Assembly (NCBI GenBank): GCA_903901425.1
Contig: CAIURC010000048.1
Location: 1-46,641, forward strand
Length of the DNA stretch: 46,641 bases
Direction: 5' to 3'
Source of the DNA: an uncultured Spartobacteria bacterium
Lineage (GTDB): Bacteria > Verrucomicrobiota > Verrucomicrobiia > Chthoniobacterales > Chthoniobacteraceae
In this document: positions 8,294 through 15,414 of the stretch, in pieces
Position numbering within the stretch: position 1 is the stretch's first letter
How the letters are laid out: each line of letters begins with the position of its first letter
The notes under the pieces: generated by a model
Database searches by the model: none
Told to the model about the DNA's origin: nothing
What the model saw: the letters and a program-made list of their open reading frames with translations, nothing else
Translations under genes and position numbers: made by a program

Positions 8294-9774
8294 ACCCCAT
8301 GAACTGCAACTCCCATCTTTTCAACGGGCTGCCGTATGAAACGCGGCTGGCTTTGACCCGGCGTCAGTTGTTCGCGCGGGGTGGAAACGTGCTGGGGGCC
8401 GTGGCACTCCAGTCGCTACTGGGACGCGGGCTCCGGGCGGAAACGGAGGGGGGCAAGCCGGCGCTGCCGCATCGTCCGGCCAAGGCGAAGAACGTGATCT
8501 ATCTGCACATGGTGGGCGGTCCCTCCCAGATCGACATGTACGATTACAAGCCGAAGATGGAGGAGATGTACGACAAAGATCTGCCCGACAGCATCCGGAA
8601 CGGGCAGCGTTTGACCGGGATGACCTCGGGTCAAAAGCGGTTTCCTGTGGCGCCTTCGAAGTGGAAGTTCAGTCCGGCGGGGCAGTGTGGATTGTGGATG
8701 AACCAAGAACTGCTTCCTTTCACGGCCAAGTCCGTGGATGACATTGCCTTTATCCGGTCCATGCACACCGAGGCGATCAACCACGAGCCCGCCATCACGG
8801 AAATGCAGACGGGTTCCCAGGTGGCTGGGCGCGCCTGTATCGGCTCCTGGCTGAGTTACGGGCTCGGATCCGAGAACAAGGATCTCCCGGCGTTTGTGGT
8901 TTTGGTTGCGGAGCCCTCCCAAGGTGGGGCCGTCCAGGCTATTTCCGGCAAACTGTGGTCCAGCGGATTCCTGCCGGGCGAACATGCCGGAGTCAGTTTC
9001 CGAAGCAGTGGCGATCCGATTCTGTACATCAACAACCCGGACGGAGTGACGGTGCCGACCCGGCGCCGCCAGTTGGATGCGATCAACCAGGTGAACGAGA
9101 TGCTGCACAGGCAGTTGGGGGATCCTGAGACGCATACCCGGATCCAGCAGTACGAGATGGCGTTCCGGATGCAGGCCAGCGTGCCGGAACTGACCGATCT
9201 CGGGAAGGAACCGGCTCACACGTTTGAACTCTACGGGGAGGAAGCGAGGAAACCGGGTACTTTTGCGAATGCGGCGCTGATGGCCAGACGACTCACGGAG
9301 CGCGGGGTGCGTTTTGTGCAGATCTACCTGAACGGCTGGGACCAGCACGGGAACATGGCGGGAAAACTGCCCACGCAGTGCAAGGACATCGACCAAGCCA
9401 CCCATGCGCTCTTGGAGGACCTCAAGCAGCGTGGATTGTTTGAGGAAACGTTGGTGGTGTGGGGCGGCGAGTTTGGCCGGACCATCTATTCCCAAGGCGG
9501 GTTGACCCGGGAGAATTACGGGCGCGATCATCATCCGCGGTGTTTCACCATGTGGCTGGCTGGAGGCGGGGTCAAGGGGGGGACGATCCACGGTGAGACT
9601 GATGATTTTTCCTACAACATCGTCAAGGATCCCGTCCATGTCCGGGATTTCCACGCCACCTTCCTGCACCTGCTGGGGATTGAACATGAACGGTTCACGT
9701 ACCGGGCGCAGGGGTTGGATTTCCGGCTCACCGGGGTGGAGCCGGCGCGGGTGGTCAAAAGCATTCTGGCGTGA
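8290..9774 (+). CDS. DUF1501 family Tat-exported protein
   Basis: This 494-aa protein belongs to DUF1501, a family of the alkaline phosphatase/sulfatase fold. The N-terminus has a twin-arginine motif (TRRQLFARGG) and a hydrophobic stretch, so it is probably exported folded. Family blocks are clear: NVIYLHMVGGPSQIDMYDYK, the RGVRFVQIYLNGWDQHG metal-site region, and WGGEFGRTIYSQG followed by GRDHHPRCFTMWLAGGG. It overlaps the PSD1 gene by four bases (ATGA 8290-8293), so the two are translationally coupled and likely act together outside the cytoplasm. ATG 8299 is an alternative start. The family's hydrolytic activity has not been shown. Confidence 0.9.
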   Translation: MNPMNCNSHLFNGLPYETRLALTRRQLFARGGNVLGAVALQSLLGRGLRAETEGGKPALPHRPAKAKNVIYLHMVGGPSQIDMYDYKPKMEEMYDKDLPDSIRNGQRLTGMTSGQKRFPVAPSKWKFSPAGQCGLWMNQELLPFTAKSVDDIAFIRSMHTEAINHEPAITEMQTGSQVAGRACIGSWLSYGLGSENKDLPAFVVLVAEPSQGGAVQAISGKLWSSGFLPGEHAGVSFRSSGDPILYINNPDGVTVPTRRRQLDAINQVNEMLHRQLGDPETHTRIQQYEMAFRMQASVPELTDLGKEPAHTFELYGEEARKPGTFANAALMARRLTERGVRFVQIYLNGWDQHGNMAGKLPTQCKDIDQATHALLEDLKQRGLFEETLVVWGGEFGRTIYSQGGLTRENYGRDHHPRCFTMWLAGGGVKGGTIHGETDDFSYNIVKDPVHVRDFHATFLHLLGIEHERFTYRAQGLDFRLTGVEPARVVKSILA

Positions 9775-10030
9775 GCAACGCTTGGTTGGAAGCCGTGGGG
9801 CCTTGGGCGGTGGAAGGCTGGGTTCGTCAGGGTGGCGGGCCTTTGCTCGGCTCACCGAGGCTTTTTGGCAAAGCAGTGGGCTCAATTCCGCGCAACTTGG
9901 CCGGGAGGAAATGGACCCTCTGCGCTGGATCGCATGCCGGCCTGTGGAGTGGTGCGGATTGCGCAGAACTTCGGGCGTGCGGGGCCTGCAGAGAACGCGG
10001 GACGCGAGAGAGCGGCGGGAGGCGTGAAAA

Positions 10031-10122
10031 TGGCGGAAGGGGCGGGATTCGAACCCGCGGTGGGAATTACCCCACGTTCGATTTCGAGTCGAGTGCCTTA
10101 AACCGGACTCAGCCACCCTTCC
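10031..10122 (-). tRNA. tRNA-Ser(CGA)
   Basis: On the minus strand this 92-nt sequence folds as a class II tRNA. The acceptor stem is GGAAGGG paired with CCCTTCC, followed by discriminator G and an encoded CCA (10031-10033). The D-arm, a long variable arm (GTGGGGTAATTCCCAC) and the T-arm GCGGGTTCGAATCCCGC are all present. The anticodon loop CTCGAAA (10082-10088) carries anticodon CGA at 10084-10086, which reads UCG serine codons. The outermost anticodon-stem pair is a C/A mismatch. No duplicate of its 3' end is seen nearby, so there is no sign of use as an attachment site. Confidence 0.95.
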
Positions 10123-10252
10123 ACTCGGATCTGGGGGGAGTGTGTTGGAGTCGGACGGGGTGGGCAAGGAGAAAGTCCCCGCGTGCCGAATTCTCAGGGG
10201 GATTGCCGGATGAGGGTTGCGGGGTGGGCAGATGAACGGGTAGAAGTACGGG

Positions 10253-12883
10253 GTGAACAGGGTACTGGCAGAGGTAGTGGTGCGCGGAAGCGAAGGTCAG
10301 CGTCTTTTGGGGGCTGAGTTGAGCGCTGGCGCGTTCATTGTGGGAAGCGGCCCCGCCGCAAGCGTGCGCTTGGAAGGTTCCCGGTTGAGTGGCAACCATC
10401 TGCGACTGTGGGTAGGGGAAGGCGGGGTGAAACTTGAGCGTTTGGAGGGCCAGATCCGCGTGGAGGGCCGTTCGGTGCGGGGCTACGTGGTGCTTCTGCC
10501 TGGCCAGGAGGCGGATCTCGGCGATGGGATGCGTCTTGAAGTGCGGGTGCCGAATCAGCAGGAGGTGACCAAATACGAGGTGGGCGAGTTGCTGGCCGAA
10601 GGGGGGACGGGTCCGATCCACTCGGCCCAGGAGCTGAGCACGGGGCGGGTTGTGGCATTTAAAATGCCAACGGTTGGGGCTTTGGACGAGCAGCGGAGGC
10701 GGCAGTTTTTGCACGAGGCCCGGATCACGGCGCAGTTGGACCACCCAGGAGTGGTGCCGGTGTACGAGGTTGGGGACGGCTCGGACGGGATGGTGTATTA
10801 CACGATGAAGCGGATCCGGGGGATCACGCTTGAGAAAGTGCTCGACCTGATTGCCGCCGGGACCGGGGCGACTGTTGCCAAGTACCCTTTGCAGAATCTT
10901 GTGACCGTCTTTTTAAAGGTGTGCGAAACGGTGGCATTTGCGCACAGCCGGGGGGTGGTTCACAGGAGTCTGCGGCCCGCATCGGTCACGCTGGGCGACT
11001 TCGGTGAGGTGCTCGTGATGGGGTGGGGTACGGCAACCGTTCAGCGGTCGGATGTGAAGGTAGCTTACGGGCTTGTGGAGGTGCCGGTTCCGGAAGAGCC
11101 GTTGCCGGACTTGGAGGTGGGTGACAGCCCGCAGCATCTCAGCCCGGAGCAGGTGCAGTCTGGTTTGCAGACTGTGGATGCTCTCAGCGACGTGTACGCG
11201 CTGGGGGTCATCCTGTATCAGATTCTCAGTTTGCGTGGGCCGATTGAGCCGGGAACGCCGGAAGAAATGCGGGAGCGCGTGGCGCGTGGGGAAACGCTGT
11301 CTTTGACCATGGGGCCGGGGCGGAAGGGGGTGCACCTGCCTGGGGGGCGGATTCCGGCAGCGCTGGCGGCGGTGGTGGCGCGTGCGATGCGCCCGGTCCG
11401 GGAGGAGCGGTACCAGAGCGTGGCGGAGTTGAAGGAGGACGTGGAACGGTACCTTGCAGGGTACCAGACCAGTGCGGAAGGTGGGGGGGCATGGAGAGCT
11501 GCGGCGTTGTTTGTGCAGCGGCATCGGAAAGGTGCGGCGGTGGTTGGGATCGGGGTGGGGGTGGCGCTGGTTTCCTTGGGACAGACGATTCTTGCGGGGC
11601 GCAAGGCGGAACAGGCGCTCTCGGATCTGAGGGGGGCTGCGGGTTTTTTGAAGGATCTTGCGGAGATGGACGCCGGGATGCGCCGGATGGAGCCGGCGTT
11701 GAAGAAACTGGAGCGGGTTTTAGAGTTGGCTCCCTGGGACGTGGAGGCGGAACGTCGCAAGGCGTGGGTCCATGTGGGGCGAGGGAAGTTGCGGGAGGCG
11801 TCCGGGGCGATGCGGGCCGTTCTTGTGCGCCTGCCGACGGATTTAAACGCGAGAAAAGCCTTGGATGTTTTTGAAAGACTCGAGGACCGCTCGTCTGGGG
11901 AGTGGACGGTACCTGAGAAGACTTTGCTGGGGCGGTTGCTGATGGAGAACCAACTGTACGGCGAGGCGCTGGCCTTGGGAGACGCCGTGGTTCTCACTCC
12001 CGCGCAACGCCTCGAGGTGGTGCGGGTCCGGGTTGGGGAATGGCTGGGGCAGAGTCAGGACGGCCAGCCCCGGTTTGAGGTCAGTTTGAATGGGGGCAAG
12101 GAGGTGGAGTTGACCTTGAAGGAGCCGGCCTTGGCCCGCCTGGAACCGGTGACCGCCCTGCCAGTGGATGTGTTGGACTTGCGCGGCACCTCGGTCTCGG
12201 ATCTGGCGCCGCTCCGCGGAATGCGTCTCAAGGGGTTGAAGATCGATAATCTCGATGTTTCAGACCTCGGTCCATTGTCCGGAATGCCGCTTCGGGAGTT
12301 GACAATGAGCTGGGTGCCTGCGGAGGGCGTGGAGGCGCTCCGGGGGTGCCCTCTGGAAACTCTGGATGCGACCGCCAGCGGGGTTTTGGATTACCTCCCC
12401 CTGTACGGACGGCCCTTGAAGGTCGTGAGGCTGGGCTACGCTTCTGGGCGCGTGGATCTGCGCTTTCTTCAGGCCTCCCCCGTGGAGGCGCTCACGCTTG
12501 AACATGCCGGGGTCAGGGATCTAGAGCCTCTGAAAGGGAGGCCGTTGAAGGAACTCGATCTGACAGGGAATCCGGTGGAAAGTTTGAAGCCGCTAGAGGG
12601 CATGGGGTTGGAGCGATTGACTTTGCACTCCGTGGATTCCTTGAAAGGCACTGCGCCGCTGGGGACTCTGCCGAAGCTCCAAGAACTGAGATTCAGCTGG
12701 CGGGTGCCCCGCTGGTTGCCGGAGGAGTTGCGCAAGAGTCCGTCGCTCAAGAAGGTGGTCTTTCAGGGGCGCGCGTTATCCGCGGAGGAATTCTGGGCCA
12801 AACTGGACAACTTGCCAGCCGAGGACAGGGCAGATGGAGAGGGAGCGAGCGCAGGTCCAGTGAAGGAGGAAAGCAAGCCATGA
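10253..12883 (+). CDS. FHA-pseudokinase-TM-LRR receptor-like protein
   Basis: This 876-aa paralogue of the next gene has an FHA-like domain (1-100), a protein-kinase fold (about 108-400), one transmembrane segment (about 428-447), a helical TPR-like region, and an LRR-like tail (about 625-840) of 22-24-residue units with a PL..MPL..L core. The kinase keeps the ATP lysine K137 and helix-C E155. It has lost the catalytic Asp (HRD becomes H237-R238-S239), the Mg-binding Asn (S244) and the DFG-equivalent Asp (MGWG, G257). The glycine loop is also altered (AEGGTGPI). It should therefore be catalytically dead, though it may still bind nucleotide. The GTG start at 10253 is supported by N-terminal alignment with the paralogue. 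Its stop overlaps the next start by four bases. Confidence 0.85.
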   Translation: MNRVLAEVVVRGSEGQRLLGAELSAGAFIVGSGPAASVRLEGSRLSGNHLRLWVGEGGVKLERLEGQIRVEGRSVRGYVVLLPGQEADLGDGMRLEVRVPNQQEVTKYEVGELLAEGGTGPIHSAQELSTGRVVAFKMPTVGALDEQRRRQFLHEARITAQLDHPGVVPVYEVGDGSDGMVYYTMKRIRGITLEKVLDLIAAGTGATVAKYPLQNLVTVFLKVCETVAFAHSRGVVHRSLRPASVTLGDFGEVLVMGWGTATVQRSDVKVAYGLVEVPVPEEPLPDLEVGDSPQHLSPEQVQSGLQTVDALSDVYALGVILYQILSLRGPIEPGTPEEMRERVARGETLSLTMGPGRKGVHLPGGRIPAALAAVVARAMRPVREERYQSVAELKEDVERYLAGYQTSAEGGGAWRAAALFVQRHRKGAAVVGIGVGVALVSLGQTILAGRKAEQALSDLRGAAGFLKDLAEMDAGMRRMEPALKKLERVLELAPWDVEAERRKAWVHVGRGKLREASGAMRAVLVRLPTDLNARKALDVFERLEDRSSGEWTVPEKTLLGRLLMENQLYGEALALGDAVVLTPAQRLEVVRVRVGEWLGQSQDGQPRFEVSLNGGKEVELTLKEPALARLEPVTALPVDVLDLRGTSVSDLAPLRGMRLKGLKIDNLDVSDLGPLSGMPLRELTMSWVPAEGVEALRGCPLETLDATASGVLDYLPLYGRPLKVVRLGYASGRVDLRFLQASPVEALTLEHAGVRDLEPLKGRPLKELDLTGNPVESLKPLEGMGLERLTLHSVDSLKGTAPLGTLPKLQELRFSWRVPRWLPEELRKSPSLKKVVFQGRALSAEEFWAKLDNLPAEDRADGEGASAGPVKEESKP
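12863..12870 (+). promoter_or_regulatory. Strong internal Shine-Dalgarno for the active kinase
   Basis: AAGGAGGA lies inside the last codons of the pseudokinase, nine bases before the ATG at 12880. Most other genes in the window have weak or no such site. It fixes the start of the second kinase and suggests that its translation is boosted independently of coupling through the ATGA overlap. Confidence 0.75.
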
Positions 12884-15414
12884 GTCTGCCACTTGCAAAA
12901 GTTCTGGTGCGGGACGAGACGGGGGAGGTGCTGCTCAGCGCAAACCTCATGGCAGGAATTCATGCGGTGGGCAGTTCGAGCCGGTGCGCCGTCCGGATCC
13001 AAGTGGCCGGGGTGGAACCCGAGCACCTGTGCCTTGAAGTGAGCGAGGGGGGGGTCTGTATCCAAGCTCCGAAAAAGGGATGCGGGCTTTGGCTGGACGG
13101 ATGGGAGGTCGACGGCCGCACCTTGGTGTTGCCGGGACAACAAATCCGGATTGGGGGCGTGGTTTTGGAGGTGCGCGAGGCTGGGCTTGAGGAATCGGGG
13201 ATTGCCGAGGGGAAACTGGAGGTCCGGTCTGAGATTGCGCGGGGAGGGATGGGGTCGGTGTACTTGGCTTGGGACCGCACGGCTGGCCGGGAGGTGGCGA
13301 TCAAGATTTTGAAGGGCGGCCAGGCCGAACCGGTGAACCGCGGGCGGTTCATCACGGAGGCCAAGGTCACTGCGCGCCTCGAGCATCCCGGGGTGGTGCC
13401 GGTGTACGATGTGGGAGCAGGTGAGGCGGGCGAGACCTACTACACCATGAAACTGGTGCAGGGCCGCACCCTTCTCAAGGTGCTGGAGGGGATTTCTGCG
13501 GGCGAGGAGGGAACGGCAGCCCGGTACTCGCTGGCCGTGCTTCTCGGGGCTTTTGTCAAGGTCTGCGATGCAATTGCCTACGCGCACAGCCGCGGGATCA
13601 TCCACCGGGACCTGAAACCGGACAACATCATGCTCGGAGAGTATGGCGAAGTCCTGTTGATGGATTGGGGGGTGGCCAAGAGCCTTTCCGGGAATGAACT
13701 CGGTCTTGGAATGGTGGATCTGGCGGCGGACGCCGTTCTCACGCTGGCCGGGGAGGTGGTGGGCACTCCGCACTACATGAGCCCAGAGCAGGCCCTGGGC
13801 CGCAATGAGCGCGTGGGGCCGCAGAGCGATGTGTATTCGCTGGGATCCATTCTTTACCAAATTCTCAGCCTGCGGCTTTCCGTTGAGCTAGGACCTGTGA
13901 TGGAAGTGCTTCGGCGCGTGGCTTCCGGAGAGGTGCTGCCGCTGGTGGCGCCCGCCGGCCTCCCCGCCAGCCATCTGCCGGGCGGCCGAATTCCGAGTTC
14001 CTTGGTGCCGGTGGTCAAGAAAGCCATGGCTCTTCAGCCGGAGGACCGGTACCGCTCCGTGGAGGAACTCCGGGCAGATGTGGAGCGTTTCCAACAGGGG
14101 TTTCCCACCTTGGCGGAACGTTCCAACTGGTGGCGGCAGGGGGTCTTGATGGTGCGCAGGCACCGGGCAGCGGTTTTCGCCGCATCACTGATGGTTTTGG
14201 TGGGGACTTCTTTTGGCGTGAGTTCGTATATTTCAGGACGGCACGCCAGTCAGGTTCTGGGCCGGTTGCGGGAGACGGCCATTTCGCTGCGGGAGGTCGC
14301 AGAGGCCGACGCGGACTTCCAGCGGCTGGAGGTGGCACTCAAGAAGCTGGATACCGCCGATGCGCTGGATCCGGGGCATCGTTCCTCGAGCGCACGGAAG
14401 GCCTGGCTGCTGGCGGGGTTGGGACGGATTGCCGATGCAGCCGAGGAGATGAAGCGCGCGGTGCCCGGTGACCGCTGGGCCGTGGATGCCGAAAAGTGGA
14501 CGGCATTTTTTCAGAAGCTTGCGGGTGAGCCTGTAGAATCCTGGACGCTGGAAGACCGCGCTGCCTTGCTGGAGGAGTTCGAGCAAAGAAAACTGGGCGG
14601 GGAGGCATTGAGCTTCACCAATCTGCTGCGCGCCAGCGGAACGAACCGCATGGAACTGGTGCGTGCAACTCTGCGGCAGCGGGATGCCAATTCAGTTTTT
14701 GTGGTGTCACAGGATGCCCTTGGGTATGTCTCGGTCCGCTCCAAGGGTTGGGTTTCAACGGTTGAACCTCTGAGGGGACTTCCCATCGCGGAATTGGTGC
14801 TGACCATGCGCGAGGAGGACTCCTTGAGCTTTCTTGAAGGTGTCCCGCTCCGCGTCTTGCGGGTCCGGGGGATGTCTCGGATGAAGAACTTGGAGCCGTT
14901 CCGGGGCATGGCCCTGAGGGAACTCGAATTGAACGGGTGCCGCGTGGCCGATTGCTCGGCTCTGGAGGGGATGCCTTTGAGGAAGCTCGTGCTTGGGGTC
15001 GGCAGCACCATCGATCTGCAGGTGCTGGCAGCCGCGCCTCTCGAGCATCTGGGGGCGCAGGGAGTCCGGATCCAAGATCTCAGCCCTCTGGCTGGGAAAC
15101 CTCTCCGGATTCTGAACCTGAGCCACAGCGGCGTTGCCGACATCTCCCCGCTCCGTCAGTCGAGCGTTCGGAACCTGGATATTTCCGGTTGTGCCGCATT
15201 GGCAACGGCTGAGAAACTGGACCCATTGACCCGGATGCCGGACCTGAATTGGGTGATGCTTCCGAAGGGATCCACGCCGCCGAGCTTGCTCCGGTACCAC
15301 CCCGCATTGCGGCGGATTGGTCGGGAGGGGATGGCCGGCACCAGCGGCCTGATGCCGGTGGAAGCGTTCTGGGTCGCTTACGACAAGGAACGCGCCGCCG
15401 CCAAGGCCCGGTAA
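12880..15414 (+). CDS. FHA-Ser/Thr protein kinase-TM-LRR receptor-like protein
   Basis: This 844-aa protein has the same architecture as its upstream neighbour but an intact PknB-type kinase domain (about 113-395). It shows the glycine loop ARGGMGSVYLA, ATP lysine K142, helix-C E160, catalytic loop IHRDLKPDN (D244, N249), the DFG variant MDWG (D262), and the GTPHYMSPEQ activation/APE region. A single transmembrane helix (about 430-450) follows, then a helical segment and an LRR-like tail (about 630-805, repeats of the type PLRGLPIAELVL). By analogy with bacterial Hanks kinases, the FHA and kinase should be cytoplasmic and the LRR tail extracytoplasmic. Its likely partner is the overlapping pseudokinase. 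Confidence 0.9.
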   Translation: MSLPLAKVLVRDETGEVLLSANLMAGIHAVGSSSRCAVRIQVAGVEPEHLCLEVSEGGVCIQAPKKGCGLWLDGWEVDGRTLVLPGQQIRIGGVVLEVREAGLEESGIAEGKLEVRSEIARGGMGSVYLAWDRTAGREVAIKILKGGQAEPVNRGRFITEAKVTARLEHPGVVPVYDVGAGEAGETYYTMKLVQGRTLLKVLEGISAGEEGTAARYSLAVLLGAFVKVCDAIAYAHSRGIIHRDLKPDNIMLGEYGEVLLMDWGVAKSLSGNELGLGMVDLAADAVLTLAGEVVGTPHYMSPEQALGRNERVGPQSDVYSLGSILYQILSLRLSVELGPVMEVLRRVASGEVLPLVAPAGLPASHLPGGRIPSSLVPVVKKAMALQPEDRYRSVEELRADVERFQQGFPTLAERSNWWRQGVLMVRRHRAAVFAASLMVLVGTSFGVSSYISGRHASQVLGRLRETAISLREVAEADADFQRLEVALKKLDTADALDPGHRSSSARKAWLLAGLGRIADAAEEMKRAVPGDRWAVDAEKWTAFFQKLAGEPVESWTLEDRAALLEEFEQRKLGGEALSFTNLLRASGTNRMELVRATLRQRDANSVFVVSQDALGYVSVRSKGWVSTVEPLRGLPIAELVLTMREEDSLSFLEGVPLRVLRVRGMSRMKNLEPFRGMALRELELNGCRVADCSALEGMPLRKLVLGVGSTIDLQVLAAAPLEHLGAQGVRIQDLSPLAGKPLRILNLSHSGVADISPLRQSSVRNLDISGCAALATAEKLDPLTRMPDLNWVMLPKGSTPPSLLRYHPALRRIGREGMAGTSGLMPVEAFWVAYDKERAAAKAR

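Follow-up and report, generated by a model that had tools for sequence, protein, structure and literature searches.

Kinase-like proteins that have lost catalytic residues are well described in bacteria, where they account for up to 67% of some kinomes and where their functions are little known (consulted sections of PMC12599244). In MviN (ActPs3), EssB/YukC, CP1, DLHK, SidJ and SelO the kinase fold persists together with catalytic losses, and several of these proteins are membrane-anchored, with a transmembrane (TM) segment after the kinase (PMC12599244, in part). The MviN pseudokinase is phosphorylated by PknB and then recruits FhaA, as set out in the same excerpts, and PknB-type (Hanks-type) kinases dimerise back to back, an arrangement proposed to be allosteric (sections of PMC6333020 and PMC6428115). 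In plants, the LRR receptor EFR activates its partner BAK1 even as a kinase-dead variant, likely via the alphaC helix (PMC11259431, in part).

The window analysed here, 46,641 nucleotides in length, is the entire contig C48 of a genome whose 224 contigs total 5.1 Mb, and it carries two receptor-type kinase genes in tandem, of which the first (A) is predicted to be catalytically dead and the second (B) to be live. The features of the pair, together with a neighbouring tRNA gene, are as follows.

10031-10122, minus strand: tRNA-Ser (cga), between the DUF1501 gene and gene A
10253..12883, plus strand: gene A, pseudokinase receptor of 876 aa with a GTG start; FHA-like part, dead kinase, TM, TPR-like part and LRR
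10268..10546, plus strand: degenerate FHA-like domain of A (Pfam score, sequence, AlphaFold2 model), with the phosphothreonine-site Arg and Asn lost
10568..11461, plus strand: kinase fold of A, residues 106-403 (Pfam, PknB alignment, model), with K137 and E155 retained
10967..10969, plus strand: codon 239 of A, Ser replacing the HRD Asp (alignment)
10982..10984, plus strand: codon 244 of A, Ser replacing the catalytic-loop Asn (alignment)
11021..11023, plus strand: codon 257 of A, Gly replacing the Asp of DWG (DFG) (alignment)
11540..11596, plus strand: TM segment of A, residues 430-448 (hydropathy)
11600..12046, plus strand: TPR-like helical hairpins of A, C-terminal of the TM segment (Pfam below cut-off; AlphaFold2 model)
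12101..12697, plus strand: LRR-like repeats of A (Pfam below cut-off; AlphaFold2 model)
12880..12883, plus strand: ATGA, stop of A and start of B, four bases common to both reading frames
12880..15414, plus strand: gene B, kinase receptor of 844 aa with an ATG start; laid out as A, catalytic residues intact
13207..14115, plus strand: kinase domain of B, residues 110-412, with K142, E160, D244, N249, D262 and activation-loop T288 present
14167..14223, plus strand: TM segment of B, residues 430-448 (hydropathy)
14245..15261, plus strand: TPR-like and then LRR-like regions of B (Pfam below cut-off; AlphaFold2 model)

An earlier note on this DNA had described an FHA-kinase-TM-LRR pair overlapping by four bases. 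The open reading frames, the ATGA overlap, the kinase and the TM segment were borne out, whereas the FHA domain proved to be degenerate and a TPR-like segment has to be added between the TM segment and the LRRs. Pfam Pkinase (PF00069) scores of 65.8 bits for A and 128.1 bits for B, both above the cut-off of 31.7, place the two proteins in the protein kinase superfamily, and hydropathy gives each of them one TM segment at about residues 430-448. The AlphaFold2 models (mean pLDDT 87.3 for A and 88.8 for B) both contain an FHA-like beta domain, a kinase fold, a TM helix, TPR-like hairpins and a strand/helix LRR-like solenoid. Since the LRR_4 scores of the two proteins (21.6 and 21.8 bits against a cut-off of 27) and their TPR scores remain below the Pfam cut-offs, the LRR and TPR labels are drawn from sequence pattern and model only. 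Translation of A and B is likely coupled via the ATGA overlap.

Upstream of the pair are DUF1549/DUF1553 and DUF1501 genes and the minus-strand tRNA-Ser, over which an open reading frame at 9771-10235 is probably spurious, and a GDSL lipase gene follows. Genes of the DUF1501/DUF1549 type are abundant in this phylum and the surroundings in a second genome (G003) were compared by eye, so nothing was drawn from a possible conservation of functional neighbours. Promoter and terminator scans gave results near chance level.

With the PknB-type receptor kinases both proteins share a kinase domain, one TM segment and then a putative sensor. In phmmer searches they matched M. tuberculosis PknB at E-values of 3.5e-27 (A) and 7.5e-36 (B), and their models matched its structure with Z 30.5 and 32.4, that of A superposing with an rmsd of 1.6 over 258 residues. 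They differ from it in their LRR-like and TPR-like sensor, where PknB-type kinases have PASTA, in the FHA-like N-terminus and in the two-gene arrangement of a dead and a live kinase. Neither protein reached the model for the PASTA kinase PknB/Stk1 (NF033483, cut-off 450; A 134.2 and B 205.0 bits, over the kinase part only) or that for chlamydial PknD (NF009651, cut-off 839; A 172.3 and B 244.5 bits).

Five residues are expected of an active Ser/Thr kinase, namely the VAIK Lys, the alphaC Glu, the HRD Asp, the Asn and the DFG Asp, the last motif being DWG in this kinase family. In the alignment B has all five (K142, E160, D244, N249, D262). A retains K137 and E155, along with the Gly-rich loop GGTG, and has S239, S244 and G257 at the remaining three positions; this matches exactly the residues that the earlier note had listed for both proteins. 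The ActPs3/MviN class is defined by three fully degraded motifs, with the Lys among the losses (PMC12599244, in part), and A of the window falls outside it with K137 kept in VAFK. The catalytic positions of MviN, EssB/YukC, CP1, DLHK, SidJ and SelO likewise differ from those of A. MviN was not among the structural matches listed for the A and B models, although these listings leave a structural likeness to it possible.

Protein searches covered four genomes of the genus and then 40 genomes of the family, and the matching regions were fetched and read. Four tandem pairs were found in total, the one in the window and three (C4, C13 and C14) in G003, a genome of the same genus whose MAG is filed as Chthoniobacter flavus, and the pair group is placed near Chthoniobacter, Verrucomicrobiota. 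The HRD Asp is lost in all four first genes (S in the window; N in C4, C13 and C14), as is the DWG Asp (G, N, N and N in the same order), and every second gene has both. Two further residues, the Met of the Gly loop and the Thr of the activation loop, follow the same rule, being gone from the first gene and kept in the second in 4/4 pairs. By the sequence definition of a pseudokinase (at least one of three catalytic motifs lost), A qualifies in every pair; first-gene homologues that keep the HRD and DFG residues, which in the earlier note's view would have argued against a conserved pseudokinase partner, did not appear among these pairs. Two first genes have also lost the VAIK Lys (H in C13 A, R in C14 A), and the Gly-rich loops of both are degenerate. 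The genes of a pair always lie close together on the same strand, with an ATGA overlap in two cases and, in the remaining two, spacings of 6 (or 27) nt and 78 nt. Distant A kinase domains are 46-52% identical and retain the fold.

The distribution of the pair is nevertheless narrower than was implied by the earlier proposal to look for it across Verrucomicrobiota: it recurs with its substitutions in G003, and it is present in two of the four genomes of one genus. Of the other two, G002 encodes three relatives that are unpaired and whose motifs are intact, and in G001 the strongest A-like match is a lone intact kinase. A profile search with the four A proteins covered 213 genomes of the order (up to four candidates scored per genome) and a sample of 384 genomes of the class (up to two per genome); within these candidates A-like scores (1109-1480 bits) were obtained only for the four A genes, no pair was seen at such scores in any other genome, and the next-best matches were the G002 singles, at 811 bits or less. 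The pattern HR[NS]L[KR]Px[NS], when searched in 210 genomes of the order, matched only the three G003 genes; it cannot match A of the window, whose R241 and S244 codons are outside the pattern, and HRS-type genes elsewhere would escape it. A plasmid search gave no match.

Outside the pairs, 33 kinases were compared after seven divergent or partial rows, three of them unpaired soluble pseudokinases, had been dropped; in this set both Asp and the Gly-loop Met are present in 33/33 and the activation-loop Thr in 30/33. All 20 class- and family-level relatives retain the motifs, and none has another kinase gene within the fetched stretch. Tandem pairs do occur in other genera of the family (G039 C62, G039 C130 and G032 C51), with both members intact. 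In a collection of 158 distinct kinase domains, gathered by similarity to the query and not at random, six lack the HRD Asp and the same six lack the DFG Asp; four of them are the A proteins and the other two are soluble FHA-pseudokinases from the genus. When kinase domains were counted across all four genomes of the genus, 54 of 83 had the residues K-E-D-N-D, the remaining 29 being a mixture of fragments and misaligned rows with true losses.

Other degenerate kinases were seen in the course of these comparisons. A separate pseudokinase family of 362-461 aa, unpaired and lacking an LRR tail, is represented by L198:7833-9134 (G000 C113), L199:7769-9151 (G001 C27) and L216:7695-8780 (G003 C35), whose HRD/N/DFG positions read A-A-G, C-C-Q and S-Y-N, respectively; an FHA-like part is seen in L198 and L199. 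As such unpaired pseudokinases occur in the same genomes, a dead kinase alone does not imply a paired partner. A further degenerate family has one member in each genus genome (L019, L252, L257, L260), with HSP/HPV/HAP-like residues at the place of HRD. In the Lentisphaeria/Victivallaceae/Lentisphaeraceae kinases L103, L105, L127 and L147 the VAIK Lys is replaced by Ala and HRD by HLD, and the other motifs are intact. Two successive kinase domains, the first of them degenerate, are also found in a homologue of BREX PglW in G002 C45 (L254:1358-5665; PADLOC PglW, 1330 bits), where the first domain reads Y-E-S-S-N and the second was not among the degenerate rows; in PglW, however, both domains belong to a single polypeptide of a defence system and there is no LRR receptor layout. 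PADLOC matches to PD-T4-6 and similar models cover the kinase domain alone and are not taken to mark a defence system.

In a kinase-domain tree of 46 rows, built with the five catalytic columns removed and with G031_C31 and G003_C48 (incomplete) left out, the eight proteins of the pairs group together in a single clade (99/100), within which the A group is weak (36/40) because C4 A has no settled position. A full-length tree (17 rows, midpoint root) separates A (89/91) and B (100/99) as sister groups, in each of which C13 and C14 come out as sisters. Because A and B are sister groups with full-length sequence, the simplest reading would be one tandem duplication followed by loss in A, with the pair then copied as a unit; two separate losses in A are possible.

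With the codon model GY+F3X4, omega for the kinase domain was 0.064 in A (4 sequences), 0.063 in B (4 sequences) and 0.067 in the three G002 singles, values that are rough because the synonymous branches are long and the sites near saturation. Fixing omega at 1 costs 216, 229 and 166 lnL units, respectively. On these rough estimates the dead kinase domain of A appears to be about as constrained as the live domain of B. The values are far from the dN/dS near 1 that the earlier note had associated with neutral decay, and its suggestion of selection for a non-catalytic role is supported by the low omega of A together with the loss of both Asp from every first gene. Recent decay or a sequencing artefact in the window was rejected as the main reading, since the losses recur in a second genome and omega is low. 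The rival reading that A is a duplicated kinase heading for loss can point to its absence from two of the four genus genomes and to one of the four A genes, C13 A of G003 (L071:15675-17957), which has an in-frame TAG after an open frame of 479 codons, past the TM segment and in the TPR-like region; this TAG is possibly a broken allele or an assembly error. It can also point to the NG86 estimates for the closest pair, C13/C14, which indicate purifying selection in both genes but are higher in A (dN 0.204/dS 0.587, ~0.35) than in B (dN 0.223/dS 0.963, ~0.23); constraint on A may thus be slightly looser. We nonetheless give it very little credence, as omega in A is that of B, the model with omega at 1 is clearly worse, open frames and fold have been kept at the identities given above, and both Asp are gone from all four copies, spanning two species.

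The FHA-like domains of the pairs have diverged as well. Their Pfam scores in the window (A 12.2, B 16.3) are below the cut-off of 20.7, and the domain is kept in six of the eight pair proteins, G003_C13_A and G003_C14_A having been omitted from the FHA alignment because neither has an in-frame FHA-like part. At the positions that we take to form the FHA phosphothreonine site, the GR Arg is present in 0/6, the SxxH Ser in 1/6 and the NG Asn in 0/6, so that these domains do not qualify as phosphothreonine readers; related proteins outside the pairs, counted over rows with letters at those positions, have Arg in 7/8, Ser in 6/8 and Asn in 8/9. The residues are lost also in B, whose kinase is intact, and this suggests that reading of phosphothreonine is no longer in use in the pair. 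The loss of these residues in the pairs is new here.

We propose that a receptor kinase with the layout FHA-kinase-TM-TPR-LRR was duplicated in tandem and so gave rise to A and B as subunits of one membrane receptor, in which B would be the catalytic subunit. A would have lost phosphotransfer chemistry and the activation-loop phosphosite, retaining a folded and strongly constrained kinase domain, and would pair with B beside the membrane as a non-catalytic partner. The LRR ectodomains of both proteins would respond to a cue, whereupon A would switch or bias the activity of B. The reading towards which we lean, with some confidence, is that of A as a receptor subunit without catalysis whose association with B would set the activity of B. 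It fits A best because no nucleotide site, catalytic base, metal Asp or phosphosite is conserved, and the fold, the anchor, the LRR tail and the coupling to B are kept. A and B may pair physically, with an allosteric effect that could be activation or restraint, and their LRRs may be periplasmic and sense a ligand; linkage and shared descent are the only pointers to the partnership. In the alignment to PknB a Gly adjoins the place of L33 in 8/8 pair proteins, and Arg, Glu or Lys is found there in 28/33 others. L33 presumably has a role in kinase pairing, and L33 mutants of PknB appear in PDB titles; the Gly is offered as a lead only.

The anatomy of A would equally suit a membrane scaffold, or a substrate acted on by B, in place of an allosteric regulator of B. 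Its TM, TPR-like and LRR-like parts would be able to bind clients, and MviN offers a precedent (PMC12599244, in part). However, a relay within the pair in which an FHA domain reads phosphorylated A is unlikely because the activation-loop Thr of A is lost in all four pairs and the phosphothreonine-site Arg in all six FHA-like domains; a phosphosite elsewhere in A is possible, and a scaffold or substrate role as a whole seems to us rather unlikely. A different catalytic activity of A, such as nucleotidyl transfer as in SelO or SidJ, appears very improbable. The GGTG loop, K137 and E155 of A in the window could permit nucleotide binding, but the nucleotide-site residues vary among the A proteins, as in the H and R replacements of Lys and the degenerate Gly loops of C13 and C14. 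A chemistry common to the A proteins would need a shared site and none is conserved, which disfavours it.

As for the preferred reading, of A as a non-catalytic partner of B, the animal HER2/HER3 pair would be a comparable receptor pair that works in a like manner. Plant EFR/BAK1 would resemble A and B in the same respect, a receptor kinase domain raising the activity of its partner without catalysis (PMC11259431, in part). With both systems the likeness would be one of working only and no shared descent is claimed, A and B being sister paralogues in an operon-like pair. The earlier note knew of no described bacterial system of this kind, and for the pair this stands: no bacterial LRR receptor pair of the dead/live type was found in the literature searched, whose coverage leaves out most subscription journals. 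For bacterial pseudokinases as such it does not stand, although the consulted sections of PMC12599244 describe no LRR receptor pair and its whole text mentions neither Verrucomicrobia nor Planctomycetes nor LRR.

Taken in full, the proposal is of a two-subunit bacterial LRR receptor in which a pseudokinase derived from tandem duplication, and multiplied as a pair with its sister kinase, would allosterically control that kinase, as a separately evolved counterpart of the eukaryotic pairs that has also abandoned FHA phosphothreonine reading; our confidence in this whole is evenly divided. Pseudokinases are common in bacterial sequences, and a role is known for few of them. In the present case a dead receptor lies beside its live sister, and pairs with both members intact exist in other genera of the family, so that the function of catalytic loss becomes testable. 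Such a test of A and B would tell whether bacteria independently evolved the pairing of receptors with a dead kinase partner.
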